Source of the DNA: an uncultured Cohaesibacter sp.
Lineage (GTDB): Bacteria; Pseudomonadota; Alphaproteobacteria; Rhizobiales; Cohaesibacteraceae
DNA: 64,000 nt
Direction: 5' to 3'
NCBI RefSeq assembly: GCF_963664735.1
Contig: NZ_OY761553.1
Location: 1,379,303 to 1,443,302, forward strand
Made by a program: the position numbers and the translations under genes. Below the pieces are notes generated by a model that worked only from the letters and a program-made list of their open reading frames with translations, was not told the origin of the DNA and searched no databases. This document shows positions 1 to 17,742 of the stretch, in pieces. Each line of letters starts with the position of its first letter. The stretch's first letter is position 1.

Positions 1-90
1 GGCGAGATATGCAGCATTCCCCTTCTCTTCAACGCCATACATCAAGCGCTCATAGAGCGCCTGATGATCGAGATTGGCAGCATTTTCCAT
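1..90 (-). CDS. N-terminal fragment of last gene in nifB-fdx operon (nifQ candidate)
   Basis: An ATG at 90 on the minus strand opens a frame that runs off the left edge (30 residues seen, beginning MENAANLDHQALYERLMYGV). It starts 23 nt after the stop of the upstream [2Fe-2S] ferredoxin, so it is very likely the next gene of the same transcript. In Azotobacter and Pseudomonas stutzeri the genes after nifB and its ferredoxin include nifO and nifQ, and a short LYERLM-type start would suit NifQ, the molybdenum donor for FeMo-cofactor. That identification rests mostly on position; thirty residues are too few to prove it. Incomplete at the window edge. Confidence 0.45.
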   Translation of the reverse strand, partial: MENAANLDHQALYERLMYGVEEKGNAAYLA

Positions 91-113
91 TTTGTCATCC
101 CGAGAGATATACA

Positions 114-473
114 TTATTCGCTCTCGTAGGTGATGCGGATATCTTCATCGCGGACAATCATCTGACAGGCCAGCCGCCAATCGCTTGGCATGTCATTCAC
201 AACGACTTTTTCAAGCTCGTCCTTGGACAATTTGCCCAGTTCCTGAAGGACGGTCTTTTCCTTATCGGTCATATGGACACCCATGTGGGTCGGGCCACCG
301 TCCAGATCCGTGACATGAATGAGGCAGGAGCCGCATTCACCGTCACCGCAATCAAAATGGATGGGCACCTTATATTCCTTGGCGAGTTCCAGAACTGTCT
401 TTTTGTGGCTGCCAGCCGGGGCGTAAATTTCCATTTCATCAAATTCAGGATGCTGAAAAACGATCTTGGGCAT
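114..473 (-). CDS. [2Fe-2S] ferredoxin, nif-associated
   Basis: A 119-residue soluble electron carrier. The cluster ligands are visible as C42-x4-C47-x2-C50 with a distant fourth ligand, C103, in LACQ. This spacing is that of [2Fe-2S] ferredoxins with a long insert between the third and fourth cysteines. It follows a second [2Fe-2S] ferredoxin gene (84 nt gap) in the nifB operon. Its likely job is passing electrons to nitrogenase or to cofactor assembly; Rhodobacter capsulatus keeps comparable nif-linked [2Fe-2S] ferredoxins (FdxC, FdxD). Start chosen at the ATG preceded by AAAAAGGACC. The exact partner cannot be told from sequence. Confidence 0.85.
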   Translation of the reverse strand: MPKIVFQHPEFDEMEIYAPAGSHKKTVLELAKEYKVPIHFDCGDGECGSCLIHVTDLDGGPTHMGVHMTDKEKTVLQELGKLSKDELEKVVVNDMPSDWRLACQMIVRDEDIRITYESE

Positions 474-557
474 TCTACTTGGTCCTTTTTGGTCAAGAGG
501 AGAGGTAGAGCATTTGAACGGGCGCTCCCTTGAGAGCGACTTATCTCTAAAGCCGGA

Positions 558-869
<312 letters not shown>

Positions 870-873
870 CTAG

Positions 874-2142
874 TCAAAGTTCAGCAAAGTCGATGACCTT
901 CGGCTTTGCCTTGCCAGCCAGAACCTCTGCGATTGCCTGTCCGTAGACGCGGCAATCCTCAAGCTCCTGTTCTGTCGGGTGAAACTTGATGCGTTTGCCC
1001 TTTTCAGGTACGCGCATTTTAAGGCCGCGCAATCGGTCCTCGATCATCGGGACGGCTTCGCCAGACCAGCCGAAGGATCCGAACGCTGCACCAACCTTGC
1101 CACGCGTTTCGATAGCAACGAGGGAAGCCAGCAAATCCCAAATGGGCTTGACCGCATCCCCATTGATGGTGGGAGAACCGAAGATCATGCCATCTGCGCC
1201 TTCGATGAGATCAACAAACGGCTCCACCTCGCCGCCTTGCAAATCGTAAAGCGAAACGCGAACACCATCGATCTTGCTCGCTCCTTCATAAACAGAGCGA
1301 GCCATGTCTGCCGTCGCGCCGTAGGCACTCATGTAAAAAATCAGCAGGCTTTTTTCCTTGCCGACGATATCGTTAGGCAAATGCGAACCGGAAAGAGAGC
1401 GATAGCTCTTGATATAGTCCATCGGGTGATCGCGCAGGATCGGCCCATGCGAGGGAGCAATCATCACAGGCTCTAGCGGCTCGATTTTATCCATTGCCTG
1501 TAGCACCCACTTCTTGAAGGGGCGCATGATGTGCTTGAAGTAATATTCAAAGGAAAAGCGGAAATCGCCGACCAGATCGTTATAGAGCCGTTCGTCGCAG
1601 AAATGGGCGCCGAAGACATCGCAAGAGAAGAGGATCTTGTCTTCTTCCAGAAAAGTACATTTGGTTTCTGGCCAATGCAGATAGGGGGTAAGCACAAACT
1701 TCAGAGTACGACCGCCAAGATCAAGGCTATCGCCGTCATCGGTCAGCGTGTAGCTATAATTCTCCAACTCGTCCTTGAGCGTCGCTTGCAGAAGCTTCAG
1801 CCCACGCTGGGAGACATAGATGTGGGCTTGTGGCGCTCGGCGCATAAGTTCCGGCAGTGCTCCGGCGTGATCCAGTTCCAGATGGTTGAGCACAACCGCC
1901 TTGATGGCATCATAGCTTGTTACAGATTCCAGCCTTGCGAAGAACTGCTCGGCGAACTCTTCCTTGACGGTGTCTATGATGGCTACGCCCTGAGCGCCCT
2001 GAACTGCATAGGCATTGTAAGTGGTGCCGTTTGCCGTTTTAAGGATCAGGTCAAAGGTGCGTAAATCAGGATCGAATGCTCCGATCCAATGGACACCCGG
2101 AGCAATTTCTTCTGCAGGTTTGCTTGATAGGGCCGATATCAT
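874..2142 (-). CDS. A-type flavoprotein / flavodiiron protein (FprA-like)
   Basis: About 422 residues. An N-terminal metallo-beta-lactamase fold carries the di-iron ligand motif H87-x-E89-x-D91-H92 (HLELDH), a later histidine in PYLHWPET, an aspartate in CDVFGAH and a histidine in APSHGP. A C-terminal flavodoxin domain starts near IFYMSAYGATADMA, the FMN phosphate loop. Flavodiiron proteins reduce O2 to water or NO to N2O in the cytoplasm. In a nif operon, O2 scavenging around nitrogenase is the simplest role, though some nif-linked FprA proteins may also act as electron carriers. The frame can be extended to 2178, but that would overlap fdxN; the ATG at 2142 lies just after the fdxN stop and is preferred. 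Confidence 0.88.
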   Translation of the reverse strand: MISALSSKPAEEIAPGVHWIGAFDPDLRTFDLILKTANGTTYNAYAVQGAQGVAIIDTVKEEFAEQFFARLESVTSYDAIKAVVLNHLELDHAGALPELMRRAPQAHIYVSQRGLKLLQATLKDELENYSYTLTDDGDSLDLGGRTLKFVLTPYLHWPETKCTFLEEDKILFSCDVFGAHFCDERLYNDLVGDFRFSFEYYFKHIMRPFKKWVLQAMDKIEPLEPVMIAPSHGPILRDHPMDYIKSYRSLSGSHLPNDIVGKEKSLLIFYMSAYGATADMARSVYEGASKIDGVRVSLYDLQGGEVEPFVDLIEGADGMIFGSPTINGDAVKPIWDLLASLVAIETRGKVGAAFGSFGWSGEAVPMIEDRLRGLKMRVPEKGKRIKFHPTEQELEDCRVYGQAIAEVLAGKAKPKVIDFAEL

Positions 2143-2146
2143 GAGT

Positions 2147-2422
2147 TCAAAGCACCCCTGCTGCGACAAGCTCGGCAATGCGTTCGGGAGGAATGCCGGT
2201 CAGACTACCCGGCGGGTTCACGGCTTCTCCAAATTCGTTGAGGATTGCACCTTCCACCGGACAGATACTTGCACATTGAGCATCGAGATAGTCGCCATCG
2301 CAATGCGTACAGGCTTTGGCAGAAATGACAAACTGCCCCTCACCGGTGCTAATCGCATTGGACGGACAAACATCCATGCAGGCATGGCAATTGACGCAGA
2401 GATTGGTGATTTCATAAGACAT
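2147..2422 (-). CDS. fdxN: 2[4Fe-4S] ferredoxin FdxN
   Basis: A 91-residue bacterial ferredoxin with two cluster motifs: CxxCxxCxxxCP near residues 9-20 (LCVNCHACMDVCP) and a second CxxC-x8-CxxxCP (ACTHCDGDYLDAQCASICP). The longer second spacing is that of the nif-linked FdxN type. It sits 14 nt after nifB, the usual place for fdxN in alpha- and gammaproteobacterial nif clusters, where it supplies electrons to NifB or nitrogenase. The low potential expected of the two [4Fe-4S] clusters fits electron delivery from the Rnf complex encoded nearby. Confidence 0.9.
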   Translation of the reverse strand: MSYEITNLCVNCHACMDVCPSNAISTGEGQFVISAKACTHCDGDYLDAQCASICPVEGAILNEFGEAVNPPGSLTGIPPERIAELVAAGVL

Positions 2423-2436
2423 GATATGGCCTCTCC

Positions 2437-4011
2437 TTACGCCGTTTGGCTTTGCGTGCAGTCAGATCCCAGCGCGCCCGATTGGTACATTTCCTTATAA
2501 ACCGCCATCAAGGCCGGAACGATTGGTTGATCTGCATGCTCGCCATTGGGAATAATTCCAGCAGCTTCCAGCTGATCCCAAGGCTTGAAGCCAATCTTGC
2601 AGCACAGCACGACTTCACACCCCTTGAGCATTTCGATGGTTTCCGGCAGAGCGGCATCTCCATCGCCGCAGTTGACTGGCCCTGTGCAATATTGCGCGGT
2701 TTTGCGATGACCGATGAGACGGGCTCCCTTGGACGAAACCTCATAGATCATGAATTCTCTGGCGGACCCGAAATGCTGATTGATCAGCCCCTGCCCGCTG
2801 CTGGCAACGGCCATTTGCACTGTTCGCAAACCAGTTGGCAGCGGAACAATCTCATGCACGCTATTGGCCAGTTGCGAGACAGCTGAAGCATGCTGCTCGA
2901 TGGTAAGGCCGTTGACTGTAAACAGCGTCTTGCCATTGGCCGTCTTGAGCTGTTCCTTGAGACTTATCTGCCGCGCCTTCTGCCTCTCGCGTTCCAGCTC
3001 GATACCGGCTTGCACTCTTGCCCGATTTTCCATGGCGGCTTCATAGTCGATGTCGAGTTCGTCGATCTTGTCGAGCGTAAATTCTTCTCCACGATCTTCG
3101 CCCAGAAGCCCGACAGCATCCGCACGACATTGCCGACAATGGCGCATCATGTTCATATCACCGCAGGCATCTTGTAGCGCTGTCAGCTCTTTCTGCGTCG
3201 GTGCGCGCTGGCCCATCACCCCATAATAGGTGCCATGCTCAGGCTCTGTAATGAGCGGCATGACATTGTGCAGGAACGCTCCCTTTGCTTTGATGACACG
3301 GCTGACTTCCTTGAGATGCTCGTCATTCACGCCAGGAATGAGCACAGAATTGACCTTGACCAGTACACCTCGTTCGATCAGCATTTCGAGGCCCTTCTGC
3401 TGTCGTTCGATCAGCACCCTTGCGGCTTTCACACCTCGCATGCGGCGATTGTTCCAGTAGATCCAAGGATAGATCTGGGCACCGATTTCCGGATCAACGG
3501 CATTGATGGTAATTGTCACATGATCGACATTGTACTTCATCAGGTCATCGACGCAGTCGGGCAACGACAAGCCATTGGTGGACACGCAAAGCTTGATGTC
3601 CGGAGCTTTCTCAGACAGGAGACGGAAAGTCTCAAAGGTGCGGGCGGGATTGGCCAGAGGATCGCCCGGACCGGCGACACCAAGTACAGTCATTTGCGGA
3701 ATGGTCGCTGCCACGGCCAAGGTCTTTTTGACCGCCTGCTCTGGTGTCAAAAGCTCTGAGACAACACCGGGGCGGCTTTCATTGGCGCAGTCGTATTTTC
3801 TATTGCAATAGTTGCACTGGATATTGCAAGCCGGAGCAACGGCAACATGCATGCGGGCGTAGTGATGGTGGGCCTCTTCAGAATAACATGGATGGTTTTT
3901 CACGCGGTCCTTAATGGCGTCGGGTAAATGCTCCATATGGTCATTGGAGCTGCCACACGACACTTGCGTACATCCGGTAGCCTCGAGGGCGTCAGTCATC
4001 CCATCCAACAT
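2437..4011 (-). CDS. nifB: nitrogenase cofactor biosynthesis radical SAM protein NifB
   Basis: 524 residues. NifB makes NifB-co, the [8Fe-9S-C] core of the nitrogenase cofactor. The radical SAM motif C62-x3-C66-x2-C69 (CNIQCNYC) follows a leader rich in Cys and His. A NifX/NafY-like cofactor-binding domain occupies the C-terminus (around GLINQHFGSAREFMIYE). This SAM plus NifX-domain fusion is the usual proteobacterial form. The frame opens at 4035 with no ribosome site; the ATG at 4011 has AGAAAGGA 9 nt upstream and is chosen. First gene after a sigma-54 promoter at 4061-4075 with a NifA site at 4142-4157. Confidence 0.97.
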   Translation of the reverse strand: MLDGMTDALEATGCTQVSCGSSNDHMEHLPDAIKDRVKNHPCYSEEAHHHYARMHVAVAPACNIQCNYCNRKYDCANESRPGVVSELLTPEQAVKKTLAVAATIPQMTVLGVAGPGDPLANPARTFETFRLLSEKAPDIKLCVSTNGLSLPDCVDDLMKYNVDHVTITINAVDPEIGAQIYPWIYWNNRRMRGVKAARVLIERQQKGLEMLIERGVLVKVNSVLIPGVNDEHLKEVSRVIKAKGAFLHNVMPLITEPEHGTYYGVMGQRAPTQKELTALQDACGDMNMMRHCRQCRADAVGLLGEDRGEEFTLDKIDELDIDYEAAMENRARVQAGIELERERQKARQISLKEQLKTANGKTLFTVNGLTIEQHASAVSQLANSVHEIVPLPTGLRTVQMAVASSGQGLINQHFGSAREFMIYEVSSKGARLIGHRKTAQYCTGPVNCGDGDAALPETIEMLKGCEVVLCCKIGFKPWDQLEAAGIIPNGEHADQPIVPALMAVYKEMYQSGALGSDCTQSQTA

Positions 4012-4060
4012 GGTGCCCGATCCTTTCTTCAGCATTGGTCCATAGTCAAGATAACGGATT

Positions 4061-4075
4061 GCAAGGGACGTGCCA
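4061..4075 (-). promoter_or_regulatory. sigma-54 promoter of nifB operon
   Basis: Read on the minus strand, TGGCACGTCCCTTGC matches the -24/-12 consensus TGGCAC-N5-TTGC at every fixed position. The expected start of transcription is near 4050, about 38 nt before the nifB ATG at 4011. Confidence 0.9.
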
Positions 4076-4141
4076 TTCGCAAGAATTCATGCAATACACT
4101 GATATTGCTTATTTTTTCATGTTGTATGCGACATTTCTCAT

Positions 4142-4157
4142 TGTCGGAGTTGCGACA
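4142..4157. promoter_or_regulatory. NifA upstream activator site of nifB operon
   Basis: TGTCGGAGTTGCGACA has the exact TGT-N10-ACA form of NifA sites and is itself partly palindromic. It lies about 67 bp upstream of the -24 element at 4075, a workable looping distance for a sigma-54 activator. Confidence 0.85.
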
Positions 4158-4280
4158 AACAAACGTCGAGACAGGAGCGGTTTTTGTGGCATACCGTCCA
4201 ATGGGCACTTCTGATTTATTTGCTGGAAAGAAGGCGGGTTTGACAGGGAAACCCGAGATATGAGGAAGGAGCGATCCCGA

Positions 4281-5918
4281 TCAGATGCGTCTGACCGAGA
4301 TCCCTAGAATTTTGATACGATAAGCAATCTGACGAGGAGTCATGTCAAGCAATCGCGCAGCTTTTGCCTGCACCCAACCGGCTTCTTCAAGAGCGGCAAT
4401 AACCCGCTCACGCTCATCCAGTTCTTCATTCTGCCAAGCATTCTCTGAAGGGCTTTCTTCTATTGCAGCAGGCGTTTTCAGGATTGGTGCCAGTGGCTGA
4501 GCGGGAACACCGATGAGCGCTTTTTCGGGCAAGCCGGACAGGGAGACCACATCGCGATCAATAATGCCATCCGCACTCATCACCGATGCCCGCTCAAGGC
4601 AGTTTTCCAACTCGCGAACGTTGCCCGGCCAAGTGTGGCGCATGAGCAGACGTACGGCACTGTCTTTCAGGGTTAGTGGTCGCCCTTGCTGTTGCCCGAT
4701 CTTGGCGATCAGGAAGCGGGCCAGCTCGGGAATATCATCCATACGATCTCTCAAGGATGGCATGTTGATCGCCATAACATTGAGGCGATAGTAAAGATCC
4801 TCGCGGAAATCCCCCGCTTCCACAGCGGCTTCCAAGTCCTTGTTGGTTGCGGCAATGATGCGAACGTCCACCTTATGGGTCTTGTTGCCGCCAACACGCT
4901 CGAATTCTCCCTCCTGCAGAACACGGAGAAGCTTGGACTGAAAGGCTGGCGTAATCTCGCCAATTTCATCAAGAAAAAGGGTTCCACCATCGGCCTGCTC
5001 AAAGCGGCCCTTGCGCATGGAAGTCGCCCCCGTAAACGCCCCTTTTTCATGACCGAACAATTCGGATTCCAGCAGGTTATCAGGAAGCGCCGCGCAGTTG
5101 AGCTTGAGATACGGCTCATTAGCGCGCGGAGAATTATAGTGAATGGCATTGGCGATAAGCTCCTTGCCGGTGCCACTTTCGCCTCGGATCAAAACGGTCG
5201 TGTTCCACTTGGCCACCATGCGGACCTGATCGAACACAAGCCGCATCGCTTCTGTTTCTCCGATGATATTTTCAAAGCCATGCTGACGCTTGATCCGCCG
5301 GCGCAGGCTGTCTCGTTCCTGGCGCAGCATTTCCTGCTCTTCCTGAACCGTGCTGGAAAGAAGAATGGCCTGCCCGATCAGGGAGGCGATCATCTGCATC
5401 AGCTTGGCATTGTCTTCAAGAAACTTGTCAGCGTAGTTCGGCTGTGCCGCGAACACACCTGCGGGCTCGTTGGAGCCCAGAAATATGGGAGCACCGATAA
5501 AGGGGCGGCTGGGATCGTAAACGCCAAGCCGATCCAGAAAACGCGGCTCCTCGTCGATGCGAGGCACGACGATCAGCTTGCGTTCACTCAAAATCGAGCC
5601 GACAATACCTTCGCCCGGCAAATAACTGACATTTTGTGTGAAAGTCGCTTCATCCTGATGAATATCGATTATTTTCAATAAGCCGCTTGCCTTGTCGAGC
5701 AGGCAAATCATGCCGTAATGCAGTCGTCCCTCTTCATGCAACAAACGCAGCACTTCTCTTGCTGTTTCATGCAAATCGAGTGATCTGCCCAGCAGCTGGC
5801 TCACCTTGTAGAGCGTTTCCAACTCTCTGCGATAAAAGGCACAGAAGACGGGCTTTGGGCACAGACCATCTTCGTGATTGATGACTTCATCCGACGTCGT
5901 AGGACACTGAATGCTCAT
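4281..5918 (-). CDS. nifA: nif-specific sigma-54 activator NifA
   Basis: 545 residues. A GAF domain (about 35-190) is followed by an AAA+ sigma-54 interaction domain (about 215-445) with Walker A GESGTGKE at 246-253, the sigma-54-contacting GAFTGA at 293-298 and Walker B GGTLFLDE at 311-318. A Fis-type helix-turn-helix ends the protein (about 500-545). NifA drives nif promoters from TGT-N10-ACA sites such as those found here. Oxygen-sensitive alphaproteobacterial NifA proteins have a C-x11-C-x19-C-x4-C motif running into the interdomain linker; here C440 is the last cysteine, and the linker (about 450-500) has none, as in Klebsiella and Azotobacter NifA. It lies 25 nt after the nifL-like gene, very probably in one operon. 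Confidence 0.96.
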
Positions 5919-5943
5919 GATGCTCGCAATCTACTAGGGAGGA

Positions 5944-6813
5944 CTAACAGGCTGGCAGGCTGACACATATGGTCGAACCGCGCACATTGCTCTCGCGGAT
6001 CTCTATGTCACCATGCAGGTCTGCAACGATCTGTCTGGCAATGGCCAACCCCAAACCGGCATGGTGAGGGCCTGATTGCCAGGCGGTATAAAATGGCTCG
6101 AAGACCTTCGTTCTGGTGGCCCGATCTATGCCGGGTCCACTATCCTGAAGGCAAACTTCAACCATTCTATCGGCACCAACGCGCGATATGACGCTGACCG
6201 CACGGGCGGTTGCGCCATTCTCCCCTATGGCGTTGATGGCATTATCAAGCAACATCCGGAGCAGCACTCGAATTGTGATTTCATCGCTGAAAATCATTGG
6301 CAGTTCCGGACTTGCACGCCACTCGACCTCAATTCCGCTTGCATCTATGCGGTCGCCGGCAATAATAAGGCAGTCCCGTATCGCTTCATTTATATTGACC
6401 GGGACATGCGGGACGTGTTTGTCGTTTGGTAGCGATAGCCGCAAGGTGCGAGCGGCTTCGTGACCGGAATCGAGCGCCTCATCAAGAGCGCACCCCATTG
6501 GCATATTGCAGCCAGCTCCTCTGGCACCTCCCGCCTCCTTCGAGCCACACCCGCTTCTCTGCAAATTGTTTGATAGCGCCGTCATGACATTGAGCGGCTT
6601 CTGCAACAGATATAGAGCACCGTCGATGACCTCGCGTGTGCGATATTCCATCTCCGTTTCAGCCATTCTGGCGCGGACTGCGTTGAGCCGCGCTTTCTCA
6701 TATTCCTGTTTCTGGAACTCCACCAGCTGGCAACGAGATGCGCATTCAACGGTGTAGAATGGGACTTGAGCCCGCTTTGCGAGTTGTTCTGTCATGTCGG
6801 TCTGCTGCTTCAT
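5944..6813 (-). CDS. NifL-like transmitter protein without PAS sensor domains
   Basis: 289 residues from the ATG at 6813. A helical segment (EMEYRTREVIDGALYLLQ) resembles the region before the ATPase domain of NifL but has no phospho-acceptor histidine. A complete GHKL ATP-binding domain follows: N box LLDNAINAIGENG, G1 DSGPGID, G2 GLGLAIARQIV. Known NifL proteins (over 490 residues) carry two N-terminal PAS domains, the first binding FAD; none is present, and an in-frame TAA at 6880-6882 closes the frame. Instead there are cysteines C24-x3-C28 and C89-x12-C102-x5-C108. The frame could start at 6879, but the sigma-54 promoter at 6839-6853 places transcription start near 6828, so a later ATG is needed; 6813 has GGA 7 nt upstream. 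Position just before nifA is the classic nifLA order. Confidence 0.8.
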   Translation of the reverse strand: MKQQTDMTEQLAKRAQVPFYTVECASRCQLVEFQKQEYEKARLNAVRARMAETEMEYRTREVIDGALYLLQKPLNVMTALSNNLQRSGCGSKEAGGARGAGCNMPMGCALDEALDSGHEAARTLRLSLPNDKHVPHVPVNINEAIRDCLIIAGDRIDASGIEVEWRASPELPMIFSDEITIRVLLRMLLDNAINAIGENGATARAVSVISRVGADRMVEVCLQDSGPGIDRATRTKVFEPFYTAWQSGPHHAGLGLAIARQIVADLHGDIEIRESNVRGSTICVSLPAC

Positions 6814-6838
6814 TGTCAAATCCATACAAAATACAGAT

Positions 6839-6853
6839 GCAACTTGCGTGCCG
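6839..6853 (-). promoter_or_regulatory. sigma-54 promoter of nifL-like/nifA operon
   Basis: On the minus strand, CGGCACGCAAGTTGC matches TGGCAC-N5-TTGC with one mismatch (C for the first T). It faces nifL-nifA, implying NifA autoactivation. It predicts a transcript start near 6828, inside the longest nifL frame. Confidence 0.72.
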
Positions 6854-6894
6854 AATGAAATAGGGCTGATTTTGGCCATTTATGCTGAGCCAGT

Positions 6895-6910
6895 TGTCGC
6901 GTTTGCGACA
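6895..6910. promoter_or_regulatory. NifA upstream activator site shared by nifLA and rnf
   Basis: TGTCGCGTTTGCGACA is a TGT-N10-ACA NifA site and nearly a full palindrome. It lies 124 bp upstream of the rnf -24 element (7034) and 42 bp upstream of the nifL -24 element (6853). It is the only such site I found between the two promoters. Confidence 0.8.
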
Positions 6911-7033
6911 ATGACACGAGCCCTTCGCGCGTTTTTGTAGCAAATGCATCAGAATTGACCGATTTGGCTTTCGGGCAAAAAGGCGGCAGAAACCGGCCCG
7001 TTTCAAGCCGTTCCGTCAGCTGAGCAATATGTT

Positions 7034-7048
7034 TGGCATGGTTGATGC
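7034..7048 (+). promoter_or_regulatory. sigma-54 promoter of rnf operon
   Basis: TGGCATGGTTGATGC keeps the invariant GG and GC with correct spacing (TGGCAt-N5-aTGC). The expected transcript start is about 7060, before the rnfA ATG at 7098. It overlaps an upstream extension of the rnfA frame, supporting the later start. Confidence 0.72.
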
Positions 7049-7097
7049 AGTTCGTTCCACGAAACCCGATTTTCAACCAGACGATTGGACTGCCTTC

Positions 7098-7679
7098 ATG
7101 GAACATACTCTGCTGATCCTTCTGGAAACAGCGCTCGTCAACAATGTGGTGCTGGTCAAGTTTTTAGGGCTGTGTCCCTTCATGGGCGTCTCGAACAAGC
7201 TTTCCGCTGCTTTGGGCATGGGTTTTGCCACCACATTTGTGCTGACCTTGGCGGCTACTGCGGCGTGGGTGGTTGAGAAATTCATGTTGGAGCCTTTGGG
7301 CCTTCAGTATTTGCGCATCCTGACCCTCATTTTGCTGATCGCAGCTATTGTGCAATTCACCGAAATGGCCATTCACAAATTCTCTCCGGTTCTGCACCAG
7401 CGTCTGGGTATTTTTCTGCCATTGATCACGACAAACTGCGCGGTGCTCGGTGTTGCTCTGCTGAACATTCAGGAAGATCACACCTTCTTTGAAAGTGTTC
7501 TGTTCGGGTTGGGATCCGCTCTTGGCTTCTCACTGGTGCTGGTTCTTTTTGCGGGCCTTAGAGAACGCATCAAGCTGGCAGATGTTCCGGCCCTTTTCAA
7601 AGGCACTCCGATTGCCTTTCTCACGGCAGGCTTTCTCTCGCTCTCCTTCATGGGATTTGCAGGGCTGGTTTCCCACTAA
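7098..7679 (+). CDS. rnfA: electron transport complex subunit RnfA
   Basis: 193 residues, six predicted membrane helices. The N-terminus [16 protein letters not shown] followed by [13 protein letters not shown] matches the RnfA/NqrE family; the GLCPFMG segment holds one of the cysteines that bind the intramembrane Fe-S centre with RnfE. Rnf couples ion flow across the inner membrane to electron flow between NADH and ferredoxin; in diazotrophs it runs toward ferredoxin reduction. The frame opens at 7029, but family alignment and the promoter at 7034-7048 both favour 7098. First gene of rnfABCDGEH. Confidence 0.96.
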
Positions 7680-7728
7680 CCTCAAAACAATCGTTTGCAA
7701 CAAGGCATGGCAATAAAGGAAATTTGAA

Positions 7729-8265
7729 ATGTTGGCAGCTATGGGTGCTCTTTTGGCTTTGGGTATTGTTCTGGGTGGCGGGCTTGGCTTGGCTGCACAT
7801 TACCTGCGTGTTGAAGGCAACCCGATTGCAAGCGAGATCGAAGAGTTGCTTCCTGGCTCAAACTGTGGCCAGTGCGGCTTTCTCGGCTGTGCCGATGCTG
7901 CCAATGCACTCGCAGACCATAATGCTGAAGTAACCTTATGCCCTCCGGGCGGCAAGGATCTGGCAGCTGCTCTGGCTGACAAGTTGGGCGTTGAGGCGGA
8001 CCTTTCGGGCATGAAAGACACCGGACCGATGATTGCCTTCGTGTTCGAAGATCTCTGCATCGGATGTACCAAATGCTCCAAACGCTGTCCGACAGACGCA
8101 ATCGTGGGGGCTTCCAAGCAAATACACGGCGTTGTCGATGATGCATGCACCGGCTGCGAAAAATGCGCCGATGTCTGCCCGACCGGCGCGATCGCAATGC
8201 GCAAAGAAACGACGACCATTCAAACCTGGCACTGGCCGAAACCAGTCCTCCCTCTGGCAAGTTAA
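7729..8265 (+). CDS. rnfB: electron transport complex subunit RnfB
   Basis: 178 residues. One N-terminal membrane anchor (about 3-25) is followed by a four-cysteine Fe-S domain (C46-x2-C49-x4-C54-x16-C71, in NCGQCGFLGC) and two [4Fe-4S] ferredoxin motifs (CIGCTKCSKRCP and CTGCEKCADVCP). RnfB is the cytoplasmic-face subunit that exchanges electrons with ferredoxin. The ribosome site AAGGA lies 9 nt before the ATG; the gap from rnfA is 49 nt. The protein ends with a short tail after the second cluster. Confidence 0.95.
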   Translation: MLAAMGALLALGIVLGGGLGLAAHYLRVEGNPIASEIEELLPGSNCGQCGFLGCADAANALADHNAEVTLCPPGGKDLAAALADKLGVEADLSGMKDTGPMIAFVFEDLCIGCTKCSKRCPTDAIVGASKQIHGVVDDACTGCEKCADVCPTGAIAMRKETTTIQTWHWPKPVLPLAS

Positions 8266-8277
8266 CGGATTGACCCA

Positions 8278-9822
8278 ATGAGACTATTCAAGATCAAAGG
8301 GGGCATTCACCCCAACGGGCACAAGGAACTGGCCGAGAATGAACAGATCGCTCAGATCCCCTTGCCCAGCCTCTTGCGCATACCGCTCAAACAGCATACC
8401 GGCGCGCCTGCCAACCCTATTGTAAAAAAGGGAGACGCAGTCCAGAAAGGTCAGATCATCGCCCTTTCCCGTGGTGCAGTCTCAGCCTCCATCCATGCGC
8501 CAACGTCTGGCCGCATCATTGCGATCGGGCGTTTTGTAGCCCCGCATGCATCCGGTTTGCCCGAACCGACAATTACCATCCGGCCAGATGGCAAGGATGA
8601 ATGGGGAGAGCTTCCTCTCCCTCTGGATCCCTTTGCTACCGCCCCTGATAAAATCGCGAACCGTGTTGCGGAATCCGGCGTCGTTGGCCTTGGCGGCGCG
8701 GCCTTTCCCGCCGCAGTCAAACTCAACCTTCGCAACCGCACAGACCTTCATACGCTCATTATCAATGCGGCAGAATGTGAACCCTATATCACCTGCGATG
8801 ACCGGTTGATGAGAGAGCGAGCCGACGAAATCATCGACGGTGTCGAGATCATCTGCCACACCATTGGCGTGAAAAAGGCACTGATTGGCGTGGAAAAGGA
8901 CAAACCGGAGGCGATCAAGGCTCTCAACAAGGCGGTTCATGGTCATGATCGATACGACATCAAGGTCGTTGAAGTTCCGACCCGTTATCCAACAGGCTTT
9001 GCCAAGCATCTGGTGCAAATTCTCACAGGTCAGGAAGTCCCTGCCCGTGCGTTGACGGCTGAAGTGGGTGTTATCGTTCAGAATGTCGCCACGACCTATG
9101 CCATCCAGCAGGCCGTACGCTATGGTCGCCCTCTGATCTCGCGCATTCTCACAGTCAGCGGCGAAATGATCAAGCGCAAGGGCAATTTCGAGGTTCTGAT
9201 CGGAACGCCGATCTCCCACATTATCGAGCAGTGCGGCGGTTTTGTCGACGAACCCGAAAAGCTGCTTCTGGGTGGCTCCATGATGGGGGATCCGGTTTCC
9301 AGCACGCGAGCCCCTGTGATCAAGGGGTCCAACGGCATTCTGGCTCTGGGGCGCAAAGAAACCAATCAAAAGCCGATCATGCCCTGCATTCGCTGCACCT
9401 CATGCGTTGCGGCCTGCCCTTGTGGCTTGATGCCCTATGAAATGGCAGCCCTCATCAAGGCCGATGAATTGGATAGCGCCGTAGATATCGGCCTTAGAGA
9501 CTGCATAGCCTGCGGTTCCTGTTCGTTTGTGTGCCCCGCCAACATTCCACTGGTGCAATATTTCAACTATGCCAAGGGCAGCCTTACGGCAAAACAGCGC
9601 GCAGCACACAAGCAGGAAGAAACCAAACGCCTCGTTCAATTTCACGATGCACGCATGGAAAAAATCAAGAAAGAAAAGCAAGAAGCCATGGCCCGCATGA
9701 AAGCCGAACGAGAGGCCAAGAAACGACAGAAAGACCAGGAGGACGCCTCCAAAGCCAAGGCGGCGAATCCCGAAGAGCCATCGTCACAAACTGACGAACA
9801 GAAAGTAAGAGCAGAAGCATGA
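8278..9822 (+). CDS. rnfC: electron transport complex subunit RnfC
   Basis: 514 residues, peripheral NADH-oxidising subunit. A biotinyl-like N-terminal region precedes the Rossmann-type NADH/FMN domain with GVVGLGGAAFP and INAAECEPYITCD. Two [4Fe-4S] motifs follow, CIRCTSCVAACP and CIACGSCSFVCP. The last about 75 residues are a charged Lys/Glu/Arg helix (KIKKEKQEAMARMKAERE), a shorter version of the Ala/Lys-rich tail of E. coli RnfC. It overlaps rnfD by 4 nt, so the two are translationally coupled. Confidence 0.95.
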   Translation: MRLFKIKGGIHPNGHKELAENEQIAQIPLPSLLRIPLKQHTGAPANPIVKKGDAVQKGQIIALSRGAVSASIHAPTSGRIIAIGRFVAPHASGLPEPTITIRPDGKDEWGELPLPLDPFATAPDKIANRVAESGVVGLGGAAFPAAVKLNLRNRTDLHTLIINAAECEPYITCDDRLMRERADEIIDGVEIICHTIGVKKALIGVEKDKPEAIKALNKAVHGHDRYDIKVVEVPTRYPTGFAKHLVQILTGQEVPARALTAEVGVIVQNVATTYAIQQAVRYGRPLISRILTVSGEMIKRKGNFEVLIGTPISHIIEQCGGFVDEPEKLLLGGSMMGDPVSSTRAPVIKGSNGILALGRKETNQKPIMPCIRCTSCVAACPCGLMPYEMAALIKADELDSAVDIGLRDCIACGSCSFVCPANIPLVQYFNYAKGSLTAKQRAAHKQEETKRLVQFHDARMEKIKKEKQEAMARMKAEREAKKRQKDQEDASKAKAANPEEPSSQTDEQKVRAEA

Positions 9823-10910
9823 GTGACGTCAATCTATTAGCTGGTCCATACTCCCATTCCGGGGCGAGCGTTTCACGCACGATGGGCCTTGTCATGCTGG
9901 CGCTGGTGCCTTCGACCGCTTTTGGGTTTGTTCAATTCGGCTGGCCATCTGTCTTTTTGTTTCTGGTCACTGTTCTGGCGGCAATCCTCTCAGAAGCCTT
10001 TTGCCTCAAGATGGCAGGCAAACCCGTTGTACTCCACATCATGGATGGGTCGGGGATCCTAACTGGCTGGTTGCTCGCCATGACCTTGCCGCCATGGGCA
10101 CCATGGTGGATCGGGGTTGCAGGTTCAGTCATTGCCATCATGCTTGCCAAACAGGCGTTTGGCGGCTTGGGGCAGAATGTCTTCAACCCGGCGATGGTTG
10201 CGCGTACGGTACTGCTGATTTCCTTTCCTATCCAGATGACCCAGTTTCTGGGTCCTCAGCCAATTTATGGTGCCTCAGCTCCCGACTTTCTTGGTGGTTT
10301 GGCCATTACCTTCGGCGGACACCCGGAAATTGACGCGATCACCAGCGCTTCCCTGCTTGGCACGATCAAAACGGAATTGGGACGCGGCGAGGTGTTGCAG
10401 CAGATCCTTGCCAAGTCTTTTGATCTTAAAAATATGATCATCGGCTTTGCGCCGGGCTCCATGGGAGAAACATCGGCTGTGCTGGCTTTGATCGGAGGGC
10501 TGTTCCTGCTCATTACCCGTGTTATCAGCTGGCACATCCCAGTAGCCATGATCGGCGCCATGTGCCTATTGTCCGGCGTTGCTCACTTGCTTGATCCGAG
10601 CCATTTTGCAAGCCCGCTGGTTCATCTCGTCTCGGGCACCTTTGCTTTTGCAGTCTTTTTCATCGCCACGGATTATGTGACGGCACCGGGCTCTCCCTTG
10701 GGCAAGATTATCTTCGGGGCTGGCGTTGGAACGCTTACATTCATCATCAGGACTTGGGCGGCCTATCCGGAAGGCGTTGCCTTTGCAATTCTTCTGATGA
10801 ACTCAACCGTGCCAATCATCGATACCTACATCAAGCCTCGCATTTATGGACGTACCCGCAAAGGCGATCCGATCAAATTGAAGGAAGCCAAGAAGGGAGG
10901 TGCGAAATGA
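9819..10910 (+). CDS. rnfD: electron transport complex subunit RnfD
   Basis: 363 residues, NqrB/RnfD family, with about ten hydrophobic segments. It includes LHIMDGSGILTGWLLAMTLP and GGLGQNVFNPAM, typical of the family. RnfD normally carries covalent FMN on a threonine in an (S/T)xAT motif; here the region reads DAITSASLLG (residues 172-181), so S178 stands where the acceptor threonine is expected. Stop and start overlap rnfG by 4 nt (ATGA). Confidence 0.95.
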   Translation: MSDVNLLAGPYSHSGASVSRTMGLVMLALVPSTAFGFVQFGWPSVFLFLVTVLAAILSEAFCLKMAGKPVVLHIMDGSGILTGWLLAMTLPPWAPWWIGVAGSVIAIMLAKQAFGGLGQNVFNPAMVARTVLLISFPIQMTQFLGPQPIYGASAPDFLGGLAITFGGHPEIDAITSASLLGTIKTELGRGEVLQQILAKSFDLKNMIIGFAPGSMGETSAVLALIGGLFLLITRVISWHIPVAMIGAMCLLSGVAHLLDPSHFASPLVHLVSGTFAFAVFFIATDYVTAPGSPLGKIIFGAGVGTLTFIIRTWAAYPEGVAFAILLMNSTVPIIDTYIKPRIYGRTRKGDPIKLKEAKKGGAK

Positions 10911-11638
10911 GTGAGGCAGAGATGAACGTCGGTGATTTGCAATCCCCTGAAGCCGAGCCATCAGTCTGGCAAAAAACAAAAGACAAGCTACTGGCCTTCT
11001 ACGAAAAACACCGCAGCAATCCGGTCTATCTGGCAACGCTGCTGGGAGGCTTCTCTCTCCTGTGCGCTTTCATTCTGGCCTCCAGCTATGTTGCCACGCT
11101 TGATCCCATTGCGCTGAGGCAAAAGGAAGACCTGCAATCCTCACTTGCCAAAGTCATTCCGGCGACGTTGCACGACAATGATCTGGTTAAGGATGCCTAT
11201 GTTATCAAGGATGATGCAGGCACTGAAAAGACGGTCTATCCGGCCTATAAAAACGGGGCATTTGTTGCGGTTGCCTATCTGGTTAGTGCGGTTGGTTATG
11301 GAGGGCCTATCCTCTCTCTGATTGGCGTTGACAAAGAAGGGTCTCTTCTGGGCGTTGAAGTTTTGCAGCATACCGAAACACCGGGGTTGGGCGACAGGAT
11401 CGAGTCCGCGCGCGGCGATTGGATCAGGCAGTTCCTTGGCCATTCACTGGGCAATCCCGCTCTGGAGCAATGGAAGGTCAAAAAAGACGGCGGCTATTTT
11501 GATCAGCTTTCAGGCGCAACGATCACCCCGCGAGCGGTTGTTCTTTCGGTGCGGAATGGGTTGCAATTTTTCAAAGCCAAACAAGACAAGATCATCCACT
11601 GCCCCAAAGGCATTTGCGTGGAAGGAAGCGGATCATGA
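10907..11638 (+). CDS. rnfG: electron transport complex subunit RnfG
   Basis: 243 residues. A cytoplasmic N-terminal stretch, one membrane helix (about 40-65), then a periplasmic FMN-binding domain. The covalent FMN site is intact: SGAT at 202-205, with T205 the expected acceptor. The start is the ATG of the ATGA overlap with rnfD; the frame is open further upstream but inside rnfD. The 45-residue segment before the membrane helix, rich in Glu and Lys, is longer than in E. coli RnfG. Overlaps rnfE by 4 nt. Confidence 0.94.
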   Translation: MSEAEMNVGDLQSPEAEPSVWQKTKDKLLAFYEKHRSNPVYLATLLGGFSLLCAFILASSYVATLDPIALRQKEDLQSSLAKVIPATLHDNDLVKDAYVIKDDAGTEKTVYPAYKNGAFVAVAYLVSAVGYGGPILSLIGVDKEGSLLGVEVLQHTETPGLGDRIESARGDWIRQFLGHSLGNPALEQWKVKKDGGYFDQLSGATITPRAVVLSVRNGLQFFKAKQDKIIHCPKGICVEGSGS

Positions 11639-12330
11639 CGAAAAGCTATCGCGAAATCACACTTGAAGGTCTTTGGACCAATACGATCCTTTTTTCGCAG
11701 ACACTTGCTCTTTGCCCCATGCTGGCAGTGACCGGCACCGCGACCAATGGCCTGGGCCTTGGATTGGCCACCACCGCCGTTCTGGTGGCGTCCGGTTTTC
11801 TGATATCGCTGTTGCGCAGTTTCATTGAACCGGAAGTGCGTATTCCGGCCTATGTGCTTATCATTGCCGGACTGGTTACCATCGTCGACCTATATATGAA
11901 TGCATATCTCCATGATCTTTATAAGATATTGGGTCTGTTTATTCCGTTGATCGTGACAAACTGCGCCATTCTGGGCCGCGCTGAAAGCTTTGCGTCCAAG
12001 GCTCGTATTCTCCCCTCCATGCTGGATGGATTGATGATGGGGGTCGGCTTCACTTTTGCCCTGGTATTGTTGGGGGCCGTACGTGAGATCTTGGGATCCG
12101 GCACCCTGTTTTCCGGAGCCTCCCTGCTCCTTGGTCCGGCCTTCAGTTTTCTGGAAGTCACCGTCATTCCGGACTATTCCGGTTTCCTCATTTTCATCCT
12201 GCCTCCGGGCGGTTTCATCATGCTGAGCCTCATTCTTGTGGGCAAGCGCCTGATCGACAATCAATTCGAGAAAGCACGCAAGCCGGATAACGAACCTGCT
12301 GAAACCATCGGCAAGCAAATAACGATATAG
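11635..12330 (+). CDS. rnfE: electron transport complex subunit RnfE
   Basis: 231 residues, six-helix partner of RnfA; together they hold the intramembrane Fe-S cluster. The family signature ALCPMLAVTGTATNGLGLG is near residues 25-45 and the second cysteine segment is IPLIVTNCAILGRAE. The start is the ATG overlapping the rnfG stop; an upstream start at 11614 lies within rnfG and is less likely. Confidence 0.95.
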   Translation: MTKSYREITLEGLWTNTILFSQTLALCPMLAVTGTATNGLGLGLATTAVLVASGFLISLLRSFIEPEVRIPAYVLIIAGLVTIVDLYMNAYLHDLYKILGLFIPLIVTNCAILGRAESFASKARILPSMLDGLMMGVGFTFALVLLGAVREILGSGTLFSGASLLLGPAFSFLEVTVIPDYSGFLIFILPPGGFIMLSLILVGKRLIDNQFEKARKPDNEPAETIGKQITI

Positions 12331-12341
12331 GAGAAACCATC

Positions 12342-12602
12342 ATGAATATTGGCGTTGCCTATGTCACGCCCACTCACAAGGTCTGGCTACGCATGGAAAT
12401 GCCAGATGGCTGCACCATTGAGGAAGCGATCCACCGATCAGGATTGCTTGACCAATTCCCCGAGATTGATCTGGAAACCCAAAAAGTCGGCATCTTCGGG
12501 CGCATCGCCAAGCTCAACAAGGAGCTTGAGGATGGCGACCGGGTCGAAATTTATCGGCCAATCACAGCAGACCCGGATCTTATCGAACGCCGGGACCGCT
12601 AG
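12342..12602 (+). CDS. rnfH: RnfH family protein (UPF0125)
   Basis: 86 residues, beta-grasp (ubiquitin-like) fold protein. The family pattern is clear: VAYVTPTHKVWLRMEMPDGC, then VGIFGRIAKLNKELEDGDRVEIYRP. RnfH closes nif-linked rnf operons in R. capsulatus and A. vinelandii; its biochemical role is not settled. It begins 11 nt after rnfE with a GGAGA ribosome site and is the last gene of the operon. Confidence 0.92.
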   Translation: MNIGVAYVTPTHKVWLRMEMPDGCTIEEAIHRSGLLDQFPEIDLETQKVGIFGRIAKLNKELEDGDRVEIYRPITADPDLIERRDR

Positions 12603-12748
12603 ACACTCTGTTATCGGAAAGGTTGACAGTGCTAGTAAATTCGAGAAGCCGGTCGCGCGCACTGATGAGCAAACAGTTGGACGCCACTTTCAAGGCTCCA
12701 ATCTGGCGCAAAGGGTGAAAGAGGTCACCTCCCTCTCGCCTTTTCACC
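12603..12748. other. convergent intergenic region between rnfH and phnM-like gene
   Basis: About 146 bp. It contains an imperfect inverted repeat (AAGGGTGAAA near 12710 with TTTTCACCTT near 12741) enclosing GAGGTCACCTC, which could end transcription from both sides. There is no convincing T-tract, so this is weak. Confidence 0.3.
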
Positions 12749-13963
12749 TTAACCTGCAGGCGTAGCACAGTAGGCCGTGCGGCCGGCAACCCACGTATGA
12801 CGGACGGCGGGCACATGCCCCTCTGGCCAGCCGACCAAAACCAGATCTGCTCTTTTGCCGAGTGCGATTTCGCCTCGGTCATCGAGCTTCATGGCCTTTG
12901 CCGGGTTGGTCGAGATCAGTTTCCAAAGCGATAATCGATCCGAGCGCTTGTCTTCATCCAAACGCGCAACTGCGGCCAGCATGGCTGGATAATAATAGTC
13001 GGAGGCCAGAATGCTGCACAAACCCGCCTCGACCATGTCGCCAGCGTTTGGCGAGTCGCCCAAATGACTGCCACCACGCACCGCATTCGGCGCACCGAAC
13101 ACGACCATATCTCCCCTTTCGCGGGCAACAGCAGCCACAGCAACCGTCATGGGAAACTCGGAAATCGAGGCTCCGTTTTGCCGATAGAAATCCCGAGTCT
13201 CATCCTGAGAGTCGTCGTGGCTAAGCATGGGTACATTCTTGCTTTGGCCCAACTTGCCAACCTTTACGATTGCTTCCTTGACACGAGGCCGCATCTGCCA
13301 ACGCTCCTTGATCATTTGAGCATAGTCCTCGGGCGAAAGACAGGAACGCTCGGCACGCCCAGCCATTTTCTTGCGAAACTCCACGCTATCGGGATCTGCA
13401 GCGCGAAAGTCCGGGGAGTGTTCAAACGGTCGTGTCTGCAAAACAACATCAGGATGCAGCATGCCCATGGATGTGTGGTCATTAAAGGCCAGCGACGGTG
13501 TCAGCGGGTTTTCCAGCGCTTCCGCAAGCAAGGGAATAGCCTCAAGACAAAAGGTTTCCCAGCGCAACTGGACACGATTTTCAACTGTCAGCCGGCTTGA
13601 CCATTTTGTGATAGCCGTAATCATTTCCCTTGCGCGGTCTACGCTGCGCAATCCGGGCTCCCAGCCTATCGACAAGGCATGGTACGCGGTGGCAATGCCG
13701 TTAGCCGCCAACTGCCGGTCTGTCTCAAGCATCGCCGCTTCCATCGGGAAGAAGACATTCGGTCGCGGCATCAACTGTCGCTCAAAAGCATCGCCGTGAA
13801 TGTCAATTATGGCAGGTGCGAGTATGCGCCCTGCCCCGTCGATTTCTTCACCGCGCACGGGGCCACCAATGTCGCTGATTTCACCCTCTGTAACTGTAAC
13901 GGTCGTTTCGACAATCTGATCAGGCAGATAGACCTGTGCTCCAGTGATGGTAAATTCGCTCAT
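12749..13963 (-). CDS. PhnM-like amidohydrolase (second copy, unlinked to phn cluster)
   Basis: 404 residues, amidohydrolase fold of the PhnM family (alpha-D-ribose 1-methylphosphonate 5-triphosphate diphosphatase). Metal-binding segments are IIDIHGDAFERQ at the N-terminal side and PMLSHDDSQDETR later, with ASDYYYPAML near the C-terminus. It differs from the canonical PhnM at 28259-29413, which has ELHTDHVEGH and LASHDDATVAH, so it is a diverged paralogue rather than a recent copy. The substrate may not be a phosphonate intermediate. The ATG at 13963 has AGGA 8 nt upstream; the longer frame uses a TTG at 13996. Convergent to rnfH, divergent from gph. Confidence 0.8.
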   Translation of the reverse strand: MSEFTITGAQVYLPDQIVETTVTVTEGEISDIGGPVRGEEIDGAGRILAPAIIDIHGDAFERQLMPRPNVFFPMEAAMLETDRQLAANGIATAYHALSIGWEPGLRSVDRAREMITAITKWSSRLTVENRVQLRWETFCLEAIPLLAEALENPLTPSLAFNDHTSMGMLHPDVVLQTRPFEHSPDFRAADPDSVEFRKKMAGRAERSCLSPEDYAQMIKERWQMRPRVKEAIVKVGKLGQSKNVPMLSHDDSQDETRDFYRQNGASISEFPMTVAVAAVARERGDMVVFGAPNAVRGGSHLGDSPNAGDMVEAGLCSILASDYYYPAMLAAVARLDEDKRSDRLSLWKLISTNPAKAMKLDDRGEIALGKRADLVLVGWPEGHVPAVRHTWVAGRTAYCATPAG

Positions 13964-14299
13964 TGATATAGTCCTATTAGAGAAAGGCTGCTCCAAGACG
14001 AAAGGTCGGCACCCGATAGTTCCTAGCGCTCGATTTCTTAGAGGCGGGAAGGCATAATTTCACTCCAGTTACTTCATTGCAAAGATGTCAAGCATATTAC
14101 AATCAGACACTTACGCACGGCATTCACCGAAATTTCCAATCTCAAAGACAGAAAGTCACCCCCAATAGCTCCTATGTTCAGAATGTGACACTGAATTTAG
14201 GTATGGACGGGCTCTTACCATTGCCAGAAGGCACGCCAGTCTTTATCCCTATGGCAGGTTTGCCGATAGAGCCACGGTTCCAAACCGCATAAAGGAAAC
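13964..14299. other. divergent intergenic region phnM-like/gph
   Basis: About 336 bp between two divergent genes, so it should hold two promoters. A 71-codon plus-strand frame (14077-14292) lacks a ribosome site and resembles no family I recognise. I see no clear operator, repeat or RNA here. Confidence 0.4.
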
Positions 14300-14959
14300 A
14301 TGATGAAAGCTATCGTATTTGATCTGGACGGAACGCTGGTCGACAGTGTGCCAGACTTGCATATCACCGCGAACAAATTGCTTGAGGCACACGGGATTGC
14401 GCCGCTAGAGCAAGACCAAGTCCGCTCATTTGTCGGCAACGGGATCGGCGTTCTGGTCGACAAGACTTGCAAGGCAGCAGGCCTAGAAATCAACGATAGC
14501 AACAGGGAAGCGATCAATAACGAGTATCTGGCCTTTTATGATCAGGTTCTCGAAGACAAGAACACACAACCCTTTGCAGGCGTACGAGACTGCCTTGAAA
14601 CCTTCCGGGCAAAGGGCCTGATGATGGGGCTTTGCACCAACAAACCCGAAGGCCCTACCCGTATGATTTTGCAAGATGTTGGTTTTGACCACCTCTTCGC
14701 CAAGGTTCTTGGTGGTGACAGCCTGCCTCAGCGCAAACCGGCTCCAGAGCCTCTGTGGGAGAGCTTTGCCGGGTTTGACCTCAAAGACTGCCTGTTTGTC
14801 GGCGATAGCGAAGTGGACGCAGCGACAGCGCATGCAGCCGGCGTATCCTGCGCCCTTTATGAGAAGGGATATCGCCAGACCCCGCTCGACCAACTGCCAC
14901 ACGATTTTGCCTTCTCTGACTTTGCAGAATTAAAGGCATATGTGTTGGACAGAAGCTAG
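14300..14959 (+). CDS. gph: phosphoglycolate phosphatase (HAD family)
   Basis: 219 residues. HAD motif I DLDGTLVDS at residues 8-16 (nucleophile aspartate plus the general acid two residues on), motif II in GLCTNKP, motif III lysine in RKPAPEP and motif IV FVGDSEVDAATA. The helical cap between motifs I and II is typical of Gph, which hydrolyses 2-phosphoglycolate. The sequence begins ATGATG after AAAGGAAAC; either ATG could serve. Related HAD phosphatases cannot be excluded. Confidence 0.85.
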   Translation: MMKAIVFDLDGTLVDSVPDLHITANKLLEAHGIAPLEQDQVRSFVGNGIGVLVDKTCKAAGLEINDSNREAINNEYLAFYDQVLEDKNTQPFAGVRDCLETFRAKGLMMGLCTNKPEGPTRMILQDVGFDHLFAKVLGGDSLPQRKPAPEPLWESFAGFDLKDCLFVGDSEVDAATAHAAGVSCALYEKGYRQTPLDQLPHDFAFSDFAELKAYVLDRS

Positions 14960-14973
14960 GTTGCAGAATAGGA

Positions 14974-15005
14974 AATCCGGCTTTCGTACTTTTGAAAGCC
15001 GGATT
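14974..15005. terminator. strong hairpin between convergent gph and MBL-fold gene
   Basis: AATCCGGCTTTC and GAAAGCCGGATT form a perfect 12-bp stem with an 8-nt loop, 15 nt after the gph stop. Neither side has a run of T, so it may act with Rho or mainly protect mRNA 3' ends. Confidence 0.6.
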
Positions 15006-15056
15006 GGACGTCTTACGATATAGCCCTAGGTGAATGACCCTACTGCCAAAGGGTGG

Positions 15057-16652: not shown

Positions 16653-16889
16653 TCTCGCAATTTCCTCTTCTCTTATTATTTTTTGTGCCGATTTTAGCGA
16701 AGCAACACAAATACAATCTTTTCATGGAAATGCCGGAATGCAACATCTCTTTGAAAGAAATGTGTTCCACAAGCTTAATTTATCAGCAATTTGTTCTATC
16801 TATTCTTATAGGTATAGCTCGCGAGGCTGCCCAAGTGACCGAACAACTGAACAAGCCTGTAAACAAGAATAGAAAAGCGATATTGACCA

Positions 16890-17636: not shown

Positions 17637-17663
17637 ACCTTCTGGCACCATCGCTCTTTGAAA

Positions 17664-17701
17664 GCCATCCCCGAACGGACAATCTGCGGGGATGGCTTTT
17701 T
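17664..17701. terminator. intrinsic terminator after LOG gene
   Basis: GCCATCCCCG (17664-17673) pairs with CGGGGATGGC (17687-17696) and is followed by TTTTT. The stem can extend by A-T pairs, so it could also work on the minus strand for the tail module. Confidence 0.88.
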
Positions 17702-17742
17702 AGGCTCAAGATCAGACTTTCCATGCGGCTCTTGTTTGCCGT

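Follow-up and report, generated by a model that had tools for sequence, protein, structure and literature searches.

In a 64,000-bp stretch of DNA (the window) from an uncultured member of the marine bacterial genus Cohaesibacter, whose genome is a single contig of 4.94 Mb, the gene directly before nifA encodes a protein that is, by sequence comparison, a descendant of NifL that lacks the features defining the family as a sensor and retains the output half. Thirteen such PAS-less proteins were found, and in one order of bacteria they occur in the same gene block as full-length NifLs. We consider it likely that the short protein acts as a NifA anti-activator that follows the nitrogen and adenylate state of the cell (GlnK and ADP) and is blind to the FAD redox state. 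The genus form carries two cysteine pairs, which might plausibly serve as a thiol or metal sensor.

Reading frame and domain layout

The PAS-less nifL lies on the minus strand at 5944..6795. The sequence-only reading had given its product as 289 residues, and positions 5944-6813 of the minus strand do translate into 289 aa (start at 6813), but the likely product is the 283-aa protein that starts at Met 6795. The complete open frame is 311 aa, from an ATG at 6879. Because a sigma-54 -24/-12-like site (6838..6853, minus strand) falls within the 311-aa frame, and an ATG stands at the position of 6795 (residue 7) in all 12 genus sequences, 6795 is the most likely translation start. Residue numbers used here (C24, C28, Y68, etc.) are those of the 289-aa form, in which the likely initiator Met is residue 7. 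The product is laid out as a short coil head with a CxxxC motif, a coiled coil, a DHp-like hairpin without a phospho-acceptor His, and a GHKL ATPase domain.

A frame or assembly error concealing a PAS half was considered and rejected, since the short form recurs in 12 genomes, the upstream region carries a conserved promoter-like site, and the space from rnfA to the coil is too small in all 11 measured loci. We also considered that the lost half might be encoded elsewhere. In a search across the family, the N-terminal-only matches to the NifL profile TIGR02938 were proteins of 751-1018 aa that do not track nif and are also present in genomes lacking nifH (such as G001, G002, G007, G008 and G014).

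Relationship to NifL and loss of the sensor half

The best NCBIfam match of the short protein is TIGR02938 (NifL, E 4.5e-53), with residues 33-286 aligned to profile positions 250-492 of 494. The score of 180.5 bits is below the curated cut-off of 242.45 for membership in NifL, which we attribute to the missing PAS half. Among solved chains the best match is A. vinelandii NifL (9qq6_A, E 4.1e-34), in which the coil, DHp-like hairpin and GHKL domain align (residues 35-287 on 290-532). This chain is deposited as "histidine kinase", and its printed PAS1 stretch is the same sequence as 2gj3, the PAS1 structure of A. vinelandii NifL (PMC3466315). In a tree of the shared region, built from 39 transmitter regions (midpoint rooting for drawing only, with many of the deeper forks weakly supported), the short proteins are placed inside NifL. 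The profile match confined to positions 250-492, the 9qq6_A match and the tree position together bear out the NifL-like transmitter and GHKL part that had been recognized from the letters of the window.

The absence of the PAS sensor, claimed in the same reading, also held in a profile search: a Pfam scan with an E limit of 1 detected PAS in none of the 13 short proteins, while the same scan detected it in all three full-length NifLs given as positive controls (E 2e-25 to 9e-25). HATPase_c was found in 13/13 PAS-less proteins, and the GHKL nucleotide-binding residues N191, D224, G226, G228, G253 and G255 are invariant in all of them. An ordinary sensor kinase phosphorylating a response regulator would also have a HATPase_c domain, and the next-best NCBIfam scores of the short NifL are indeed those of the AtoS and ZraS kinase models. 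However, residue 68 is Tyr in 13/13 where the aligned residue of A. vinelandii NifL is His, so the protein cannot be counted among the classical kinases. In addition, the gene that comes 25 bp later is nifA (4281..5918, minus strand; GAF, AAA+ and HTH regions), for which Pfam reports GAF and no receiver domain, and the tree position is inside NifL. We regard such a kinase as extremely improbable and treat the protein as a NifL.

NifL in Alpha- and Zetaproteobacteria has been published already (PMC6490700, section 6), and the alphaproteobacterial NifL clade in a figure of that paper may hold short forms without comment. No mention of a PAS-less NifL was found in the titles or abstract openings among the literature matches listed, a set that covered few subscription papers.

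Distribution of the short form and selection on it

The short nifL was detected (E up to 1e-20) in 12 of 18 genus genomes, and nifH is present in the same 12. The six genomes with neither gene are G001, G002, G006, G007, G008 and G014, among which G007 (64% complete) and G001 (8% contamination) are poorer assemblies. In the alignments a C. marisflavi record (L009) stands for G005. Among the contig records compared, C. marisflavi is also the closest named one to the window (88% identity in the best segment); of 21 stretches matched by pattern, one coded for a relative. The thirteenth short NifL comes from a genome of a different family of the same order (G033) and lacks both cysteine pairs. It lies directly before nifA on one 3,050-bp contig (L133:1-3050), with an in-frame TGA at bases 8-10 and a Met at 23, 22 bases from the contig edge. 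No further PAS-less NifLs were found in the families of G033, G078 and G103 (2, 3 and 2 genomes, respectively).

NifL had been described as rare outside the gamma- and betaproteobacteria, and our counts agree: proteins above the curated cut-off occur in 0/20 family genomes, 3/397 genomes of the order, 0/385 of the class and 7/398 of the phylum, the last three being genome samples in which three candidates per genome were scored. A profile of the short form (E up to 1e-30) matches 16 of 274 genomes in the class of G1067, which we take to be Gammaproteobacteria, and every one of the 16 matching frames is 538-589 aa long.

Identity to the window protein within the genus ranges from 57% to 91%, the second of two deep subclades standing at 57-60%. 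Between these subclades the coil has pN 0.09 versus pS 0.78, and the GHKL domain pN 0.28 versus pS 0.73. These are plain proportions over 8 by 4 pairs, uncorrected for multiple hits, and pS is near saturation (0.56-0.87 by region). The short nifL is under purifying selection. A decaying remnant, that is, a NifL being lost and kept only by its operon position, would account for the two missing domains and for the faster evolution of the N-terminus and the hairpin loop. Against it, the frame is intact in all 12 genus sequences although the second subclade has diverged so far, the ATP-site motifs and the coil are conserved under purifying selection, the promoter-like site is conserved, and the gene keeps to the same genomes as nifH; we find decay very improbable. 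The short form is not local damage; it is stable across the genus and paired with nifA.

Phylogeny, gene order and a probable deletion

The 13 PAS-less proteins form one clade (support 100/99), which adjoins three full-length NifLs of the same order (97/83); all 16 together are supported at 100/100. These three full-length proteins (G103, G078 and G114) have frames of 565-600 aa and a short DHp loop without cysteines, share the same gene block and a C-terminal LP[AS]C with the short form, and show PAS in both of the two that were scanned. Two divergent full-length NifLs (L067 and L068) stand on long branches, and L067 has two cysteines in the DHp loop region.

The block rnfCBA / nifL-nifA-nifB-fdxN-flavodiiron-fdx-fdx is found in the window, in 11/11 further genus loci, in 3/3 full-length loci of the order, and in 2/4 full-length loci from the class of G1067. 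In one of the other two loci of that class (G1173) the last three genes of the block are absent from the fetched stretch, and in the other (G1348) neither those genes nor rnf are present. In the window, in the 11 further genus loci and in G033, nifL is directly before nifA. Measured from the residue-38 equivalent, rnfA starts 394-430 bp away in 11/11 short loci and 1183-1237 bp away in the six full-length loci where rnfA was found (6/6). The missing piece of about 0.75-0.84 kb is the size of two PAS domains. In full-length relatives with the same block, rnfA and the coil are thus some 0.8 kb further apart, in keeping with the proposed loss of the PAS sensor, and both PAS domains were probably lost together. 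A single deletion is the simplest account and probably removed them.

Control region and neighboring genes

The sigma-54 -24/-12-like site before nifLA (CGGCACGCAAGTTGCA) is present in 12/12 genus loci, where it follows the pattern CGGCAYG-N4-TTGCA. A TGT-N10-ACA element, a candidate NifA site, lies between nifLA and rnf at 6895..6910 in 12/12 genus loci, and a divergent sigma-54-like site (TGGCATGGTTGATGCA, 7034..7049, plus strand) points towards the rnf operon (rnfA, with its start taken at 7098, rnfB and rnfC; 7098..9822, plus strand, divergent from nifL); a like site is present in 12/12 genus loci. The consensus sequences are TGGCACG-N4-TTGCW for RpoN and TGT-N10-ACA for NifA (PMC4999443). 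TGT-N10-ACA occurs in the window at about the number expected by chance (12 versus 10.2), so the evidence for the element is its placement in all 12 loci. With one mismatch allowed, the window has eight sigma-54 matches against an expectation of 4.4, and the exact sites of nifL and nifB are two of them. The nifB gene (2437..4035, minus strand) has its own sigma-54 site (4060-4075, minus strand) and a TGT-N10-ACA (4142-4157) between nifA and nifB. From these elements, nifLA probably depends on a sigma-54 promoter and has a NifA site in common with rnf as a joint enhancer, and would thereby form an autofeedback loop. In A. vinelandii the rnf1 operon likewise adjoins nifLA (PMC6490700, section 6), and Cohaesibacter has been listed among the Alphaproteobacteria with nitrogenases that cluster with those of Gammaproteobacteria (PMC8399215).

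Behind nifB-fdxN lies a gene for a flavodiiron-type protein (874-2142, minus strand), as in 11/11 further genus loci, 3/3 full-length loci of the order and 2/4 loci of the other class. Its best NCBIfam match is a flavorubredoxin model (273 bits, below the cut-off of 635), and the protein is a possible oxygen scavenger for nitrogenase. Two small ferredoxin-like genes (114-473 and 558-848, minus strand) complete the conserved block; the 558-848 gene has a weak match to 2Fe-2S ferredoxin models, and the 114-473 gene matches no NCBIfam model at 1e-5.

Cysteine pairs of the genus form

The motifs C24-x3-C28 and C89-x12-C102-x5-C108 are present in the window protein as the sequence-only reading had them, but the second is not a fixed motif: C24, C28, C102, C148 and C289 are found in 12/12 genus sequences, C89 in 10/12 and C108 in 7/12. 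What is constant in the DHp hairpin loop (codons of the loop with C89, C102 and C108 at 6490..6549, minus strand) is the number, exactly two cysteines before PM[GE] in all 12 genus members, spaced x6 to x12 when counted by place and not by alignment column. The invariant pair at the coil head is encoded at 6730..6744 (C24-A-S-R-C28, minus strand). pN is 0.12 for residues 23-30 and higher for residues 7-22 (0.48) and for the loop (0.53), and both Cys codons of the CxxxC vary synonymously. The CxxxC and the two-Cys loop have been retained in 12/12 despite near-saturated synonymous sites. No equivalent of C148 is Cys in the 27 other aligned rows (25 full-length NifLs from the fetched loci, A. vinelandii NifL and the G033 protein), and C289 is common to the three full-length NifLs of the order and to G033. 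Single loop cysteines are seen in L064 and L065. An alignment of ECAS onto RWFSC of the full-length PAS2 was held to be an artefact, since the distances from the coil differ.

Alignment of homologues had been suggested as a check on the cysteines. It returned the CxxxC and the two-Cys loop throughout the genus, but both pairs are absent from the G033 protein, which has no loop cysteines and has His aligned with C24 and C28, giving His-His-x-x-His at the place of CxxxC. A homologue without the cysteines, which the sequence-only reading had listed among the results that would speak against it, thus turned up once, and a NifL can be PAS-less without having the pairs. The histidines of G033 may mark either the simple absence of the pair or another metal site, one sequence being open to both readings. 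Two separate cysteine sites appear to be the better description of the genus form: one Fe-S site made from both groups is unlikely, because about 60 probably helical residues separate the coil head from the loop in the known DHp architecture. The two cysteine pairs seem to have been added or retained in this genus, with the CxxxC where PAS2 would formerly have joined the coil.

Oxygen input to nif

In rhizobial NifA, oxygen is sensed by cysteines in the interdomain linker (PMC9866876). In the genus, the NifA stretch that follows ENC, with which the AAA+ part ends, is free of cysteine as far as the C-terminus in 12/12 genomes. With a NifL lacking the flavin PAS and a NifA lacking the cysteine linker, two known oxygen inputs to nif are both absent. 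The window genome has seven HTH_Crp_2 hits, of which four resemble Crp/Fnr proteins and the remaining three other HTH regulators. Fnr carries an N-terminal cysteine cluster; on inspection by eye, none of the seven hits shows one. The top hit (L138) looks like a FixK-type Crp/Fnr protein and is likewise without the cluster. No FNR/FixK box (TTGAY-N4-RTCAA, up to one mismatch) is found in window positions 1-18000, and across the whole window FNR-like boxes occur at chance (9 versus 9.8 expected).

A cysteine or metal oxygen sensor could have replaced FAD. Two subunits would bring their CxxxC motifs together at the dimer interface, in the former place of PAS2, and the four thiols would bind an Fe-S cluster or another metal or form disulphides; the loop pair would be a second switch, and oxidation would turn on NifA inhibition. 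The invariance of C24, C28 and C102, the two loop cysteines kept in every genus member in so variable a loop, the low pN of residues 23-30 relative to residues 7-22 with synonymous change in the Cys codons, and the NifA without cysteine after ENC all speak for such a sensor, as does the finding of no other oxygen input to nifLA in the Crp/Fnr and FNR-box searches; the G033 histidines are possible metal ligands too. On the other side, the PAS-less G033 NifL has none of the pair cysteines, the loop spacing varies and C108 is missing in 5/12, and a cysteine that never varies in a cytosolic protein may have a structural role. An AlphaFold2 model from two sequences (the window protein and L009) had a mean pLDDT of 37.7 and is not usable. 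A cysteine sensor is in our judgment a serious possibility that falls somewhat short of an even chance. The fuller history, in which NifL swapped sensors, losing the FAD-PAS pair in one deletion and then acquiring a metal or thiol switch (the four CxxxC cysteines at the dimer interface plus the loop pair) where PAS2 fed the coil, with G033 perhaps using histidines there, is doubtful. If it were true, oxygen control of nif would run through NifL cysteines and not through flavin or NifA cysteines.

Proposed regulation of NifA

We favor the anti-activator that answers to nitrogen and adenylate state. A deletion of about 0.8 kb would have taken both PAS domains from an ancestral NifL, and with them FAD redox sensing, and left the parts with which A. 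vinelandii NifL holds NifA (DHp/GHKL) and binds nucleotide and, probably, GlnK (GHKL). With ample nitrogen (GlnK unmodified, 2-oxoglutarate low), the ADP-loaded dimer would bind NifA and block its AAA+ domain; under nitrogen scarcity, NifA would be released. In published work the NifL GHKL/DHp part contacts the NifA AAA+ domain (PMC12998174), GlnK binding is assigned to the NifL C-terminal domain (PMC6490700), and ADP and probably GlnK act on that domain (PMC8219145). A. vinelandii NifL(143-519), which lacks PAS1 and has a linker deletion, kept its nitrogen response and lost its oxygen response (PMC3466315). The option that the short protein senses only ATP/ADP and GlnK state, raised in the sequence-only reading, fits this behavior. 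That deletion took PAS1 only, with PAS2 still there. The same paper also describes variants that stay locked as inhibitors, so a NifL without its sensor need not remain responsive (PMC3466315). The CxxxC might add a thiol or metal input on top of nitrogen and adenylate gating, a tentative extension to which we do not quite incline. If oxygen were sensed via the cysteines, the "nitrogen and adenylate only" reading would be incomplete.

Comparison with known systems

Compared with A. vinelandii NifL, the short form lacks FAD-PAS1 and PAS2 and has Tyr for the DHp His, and the genus form has two cysteine pairs that the aligned A. vinelandii sequence lacks. The G033 NifL belongs to the same clade, without PAS and directly before nifA, and differs in lacking the CxxxC and the loop cysteines. 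RegB/PrrB-type kinases, which are membrane kinases with phosphotransfer, have a redox cysteine beside the DHp; the likeness is a cysteine near the head of the DHp dimer, and no homology is claimed. The likeness to rhizobial-type NifA (PMC9866876) is in cysteines as a possible nif oxygen input; there the NifA linker carries them, whereas here the NifA linker has none and the cysteines are in NifL.

Full-length and PAS-less NifLs in the same gene block of one bacterial order amount to a natural domain-deletion experiment. The transmitter half alone, and the protection of nif from oxygen without FAD sensing, become directly testable. A NifL responding to nitrogen but not to oxygen, or to oxygen by other chemistry, would also be a useful component in studies of nif regulation in laboratory strains.
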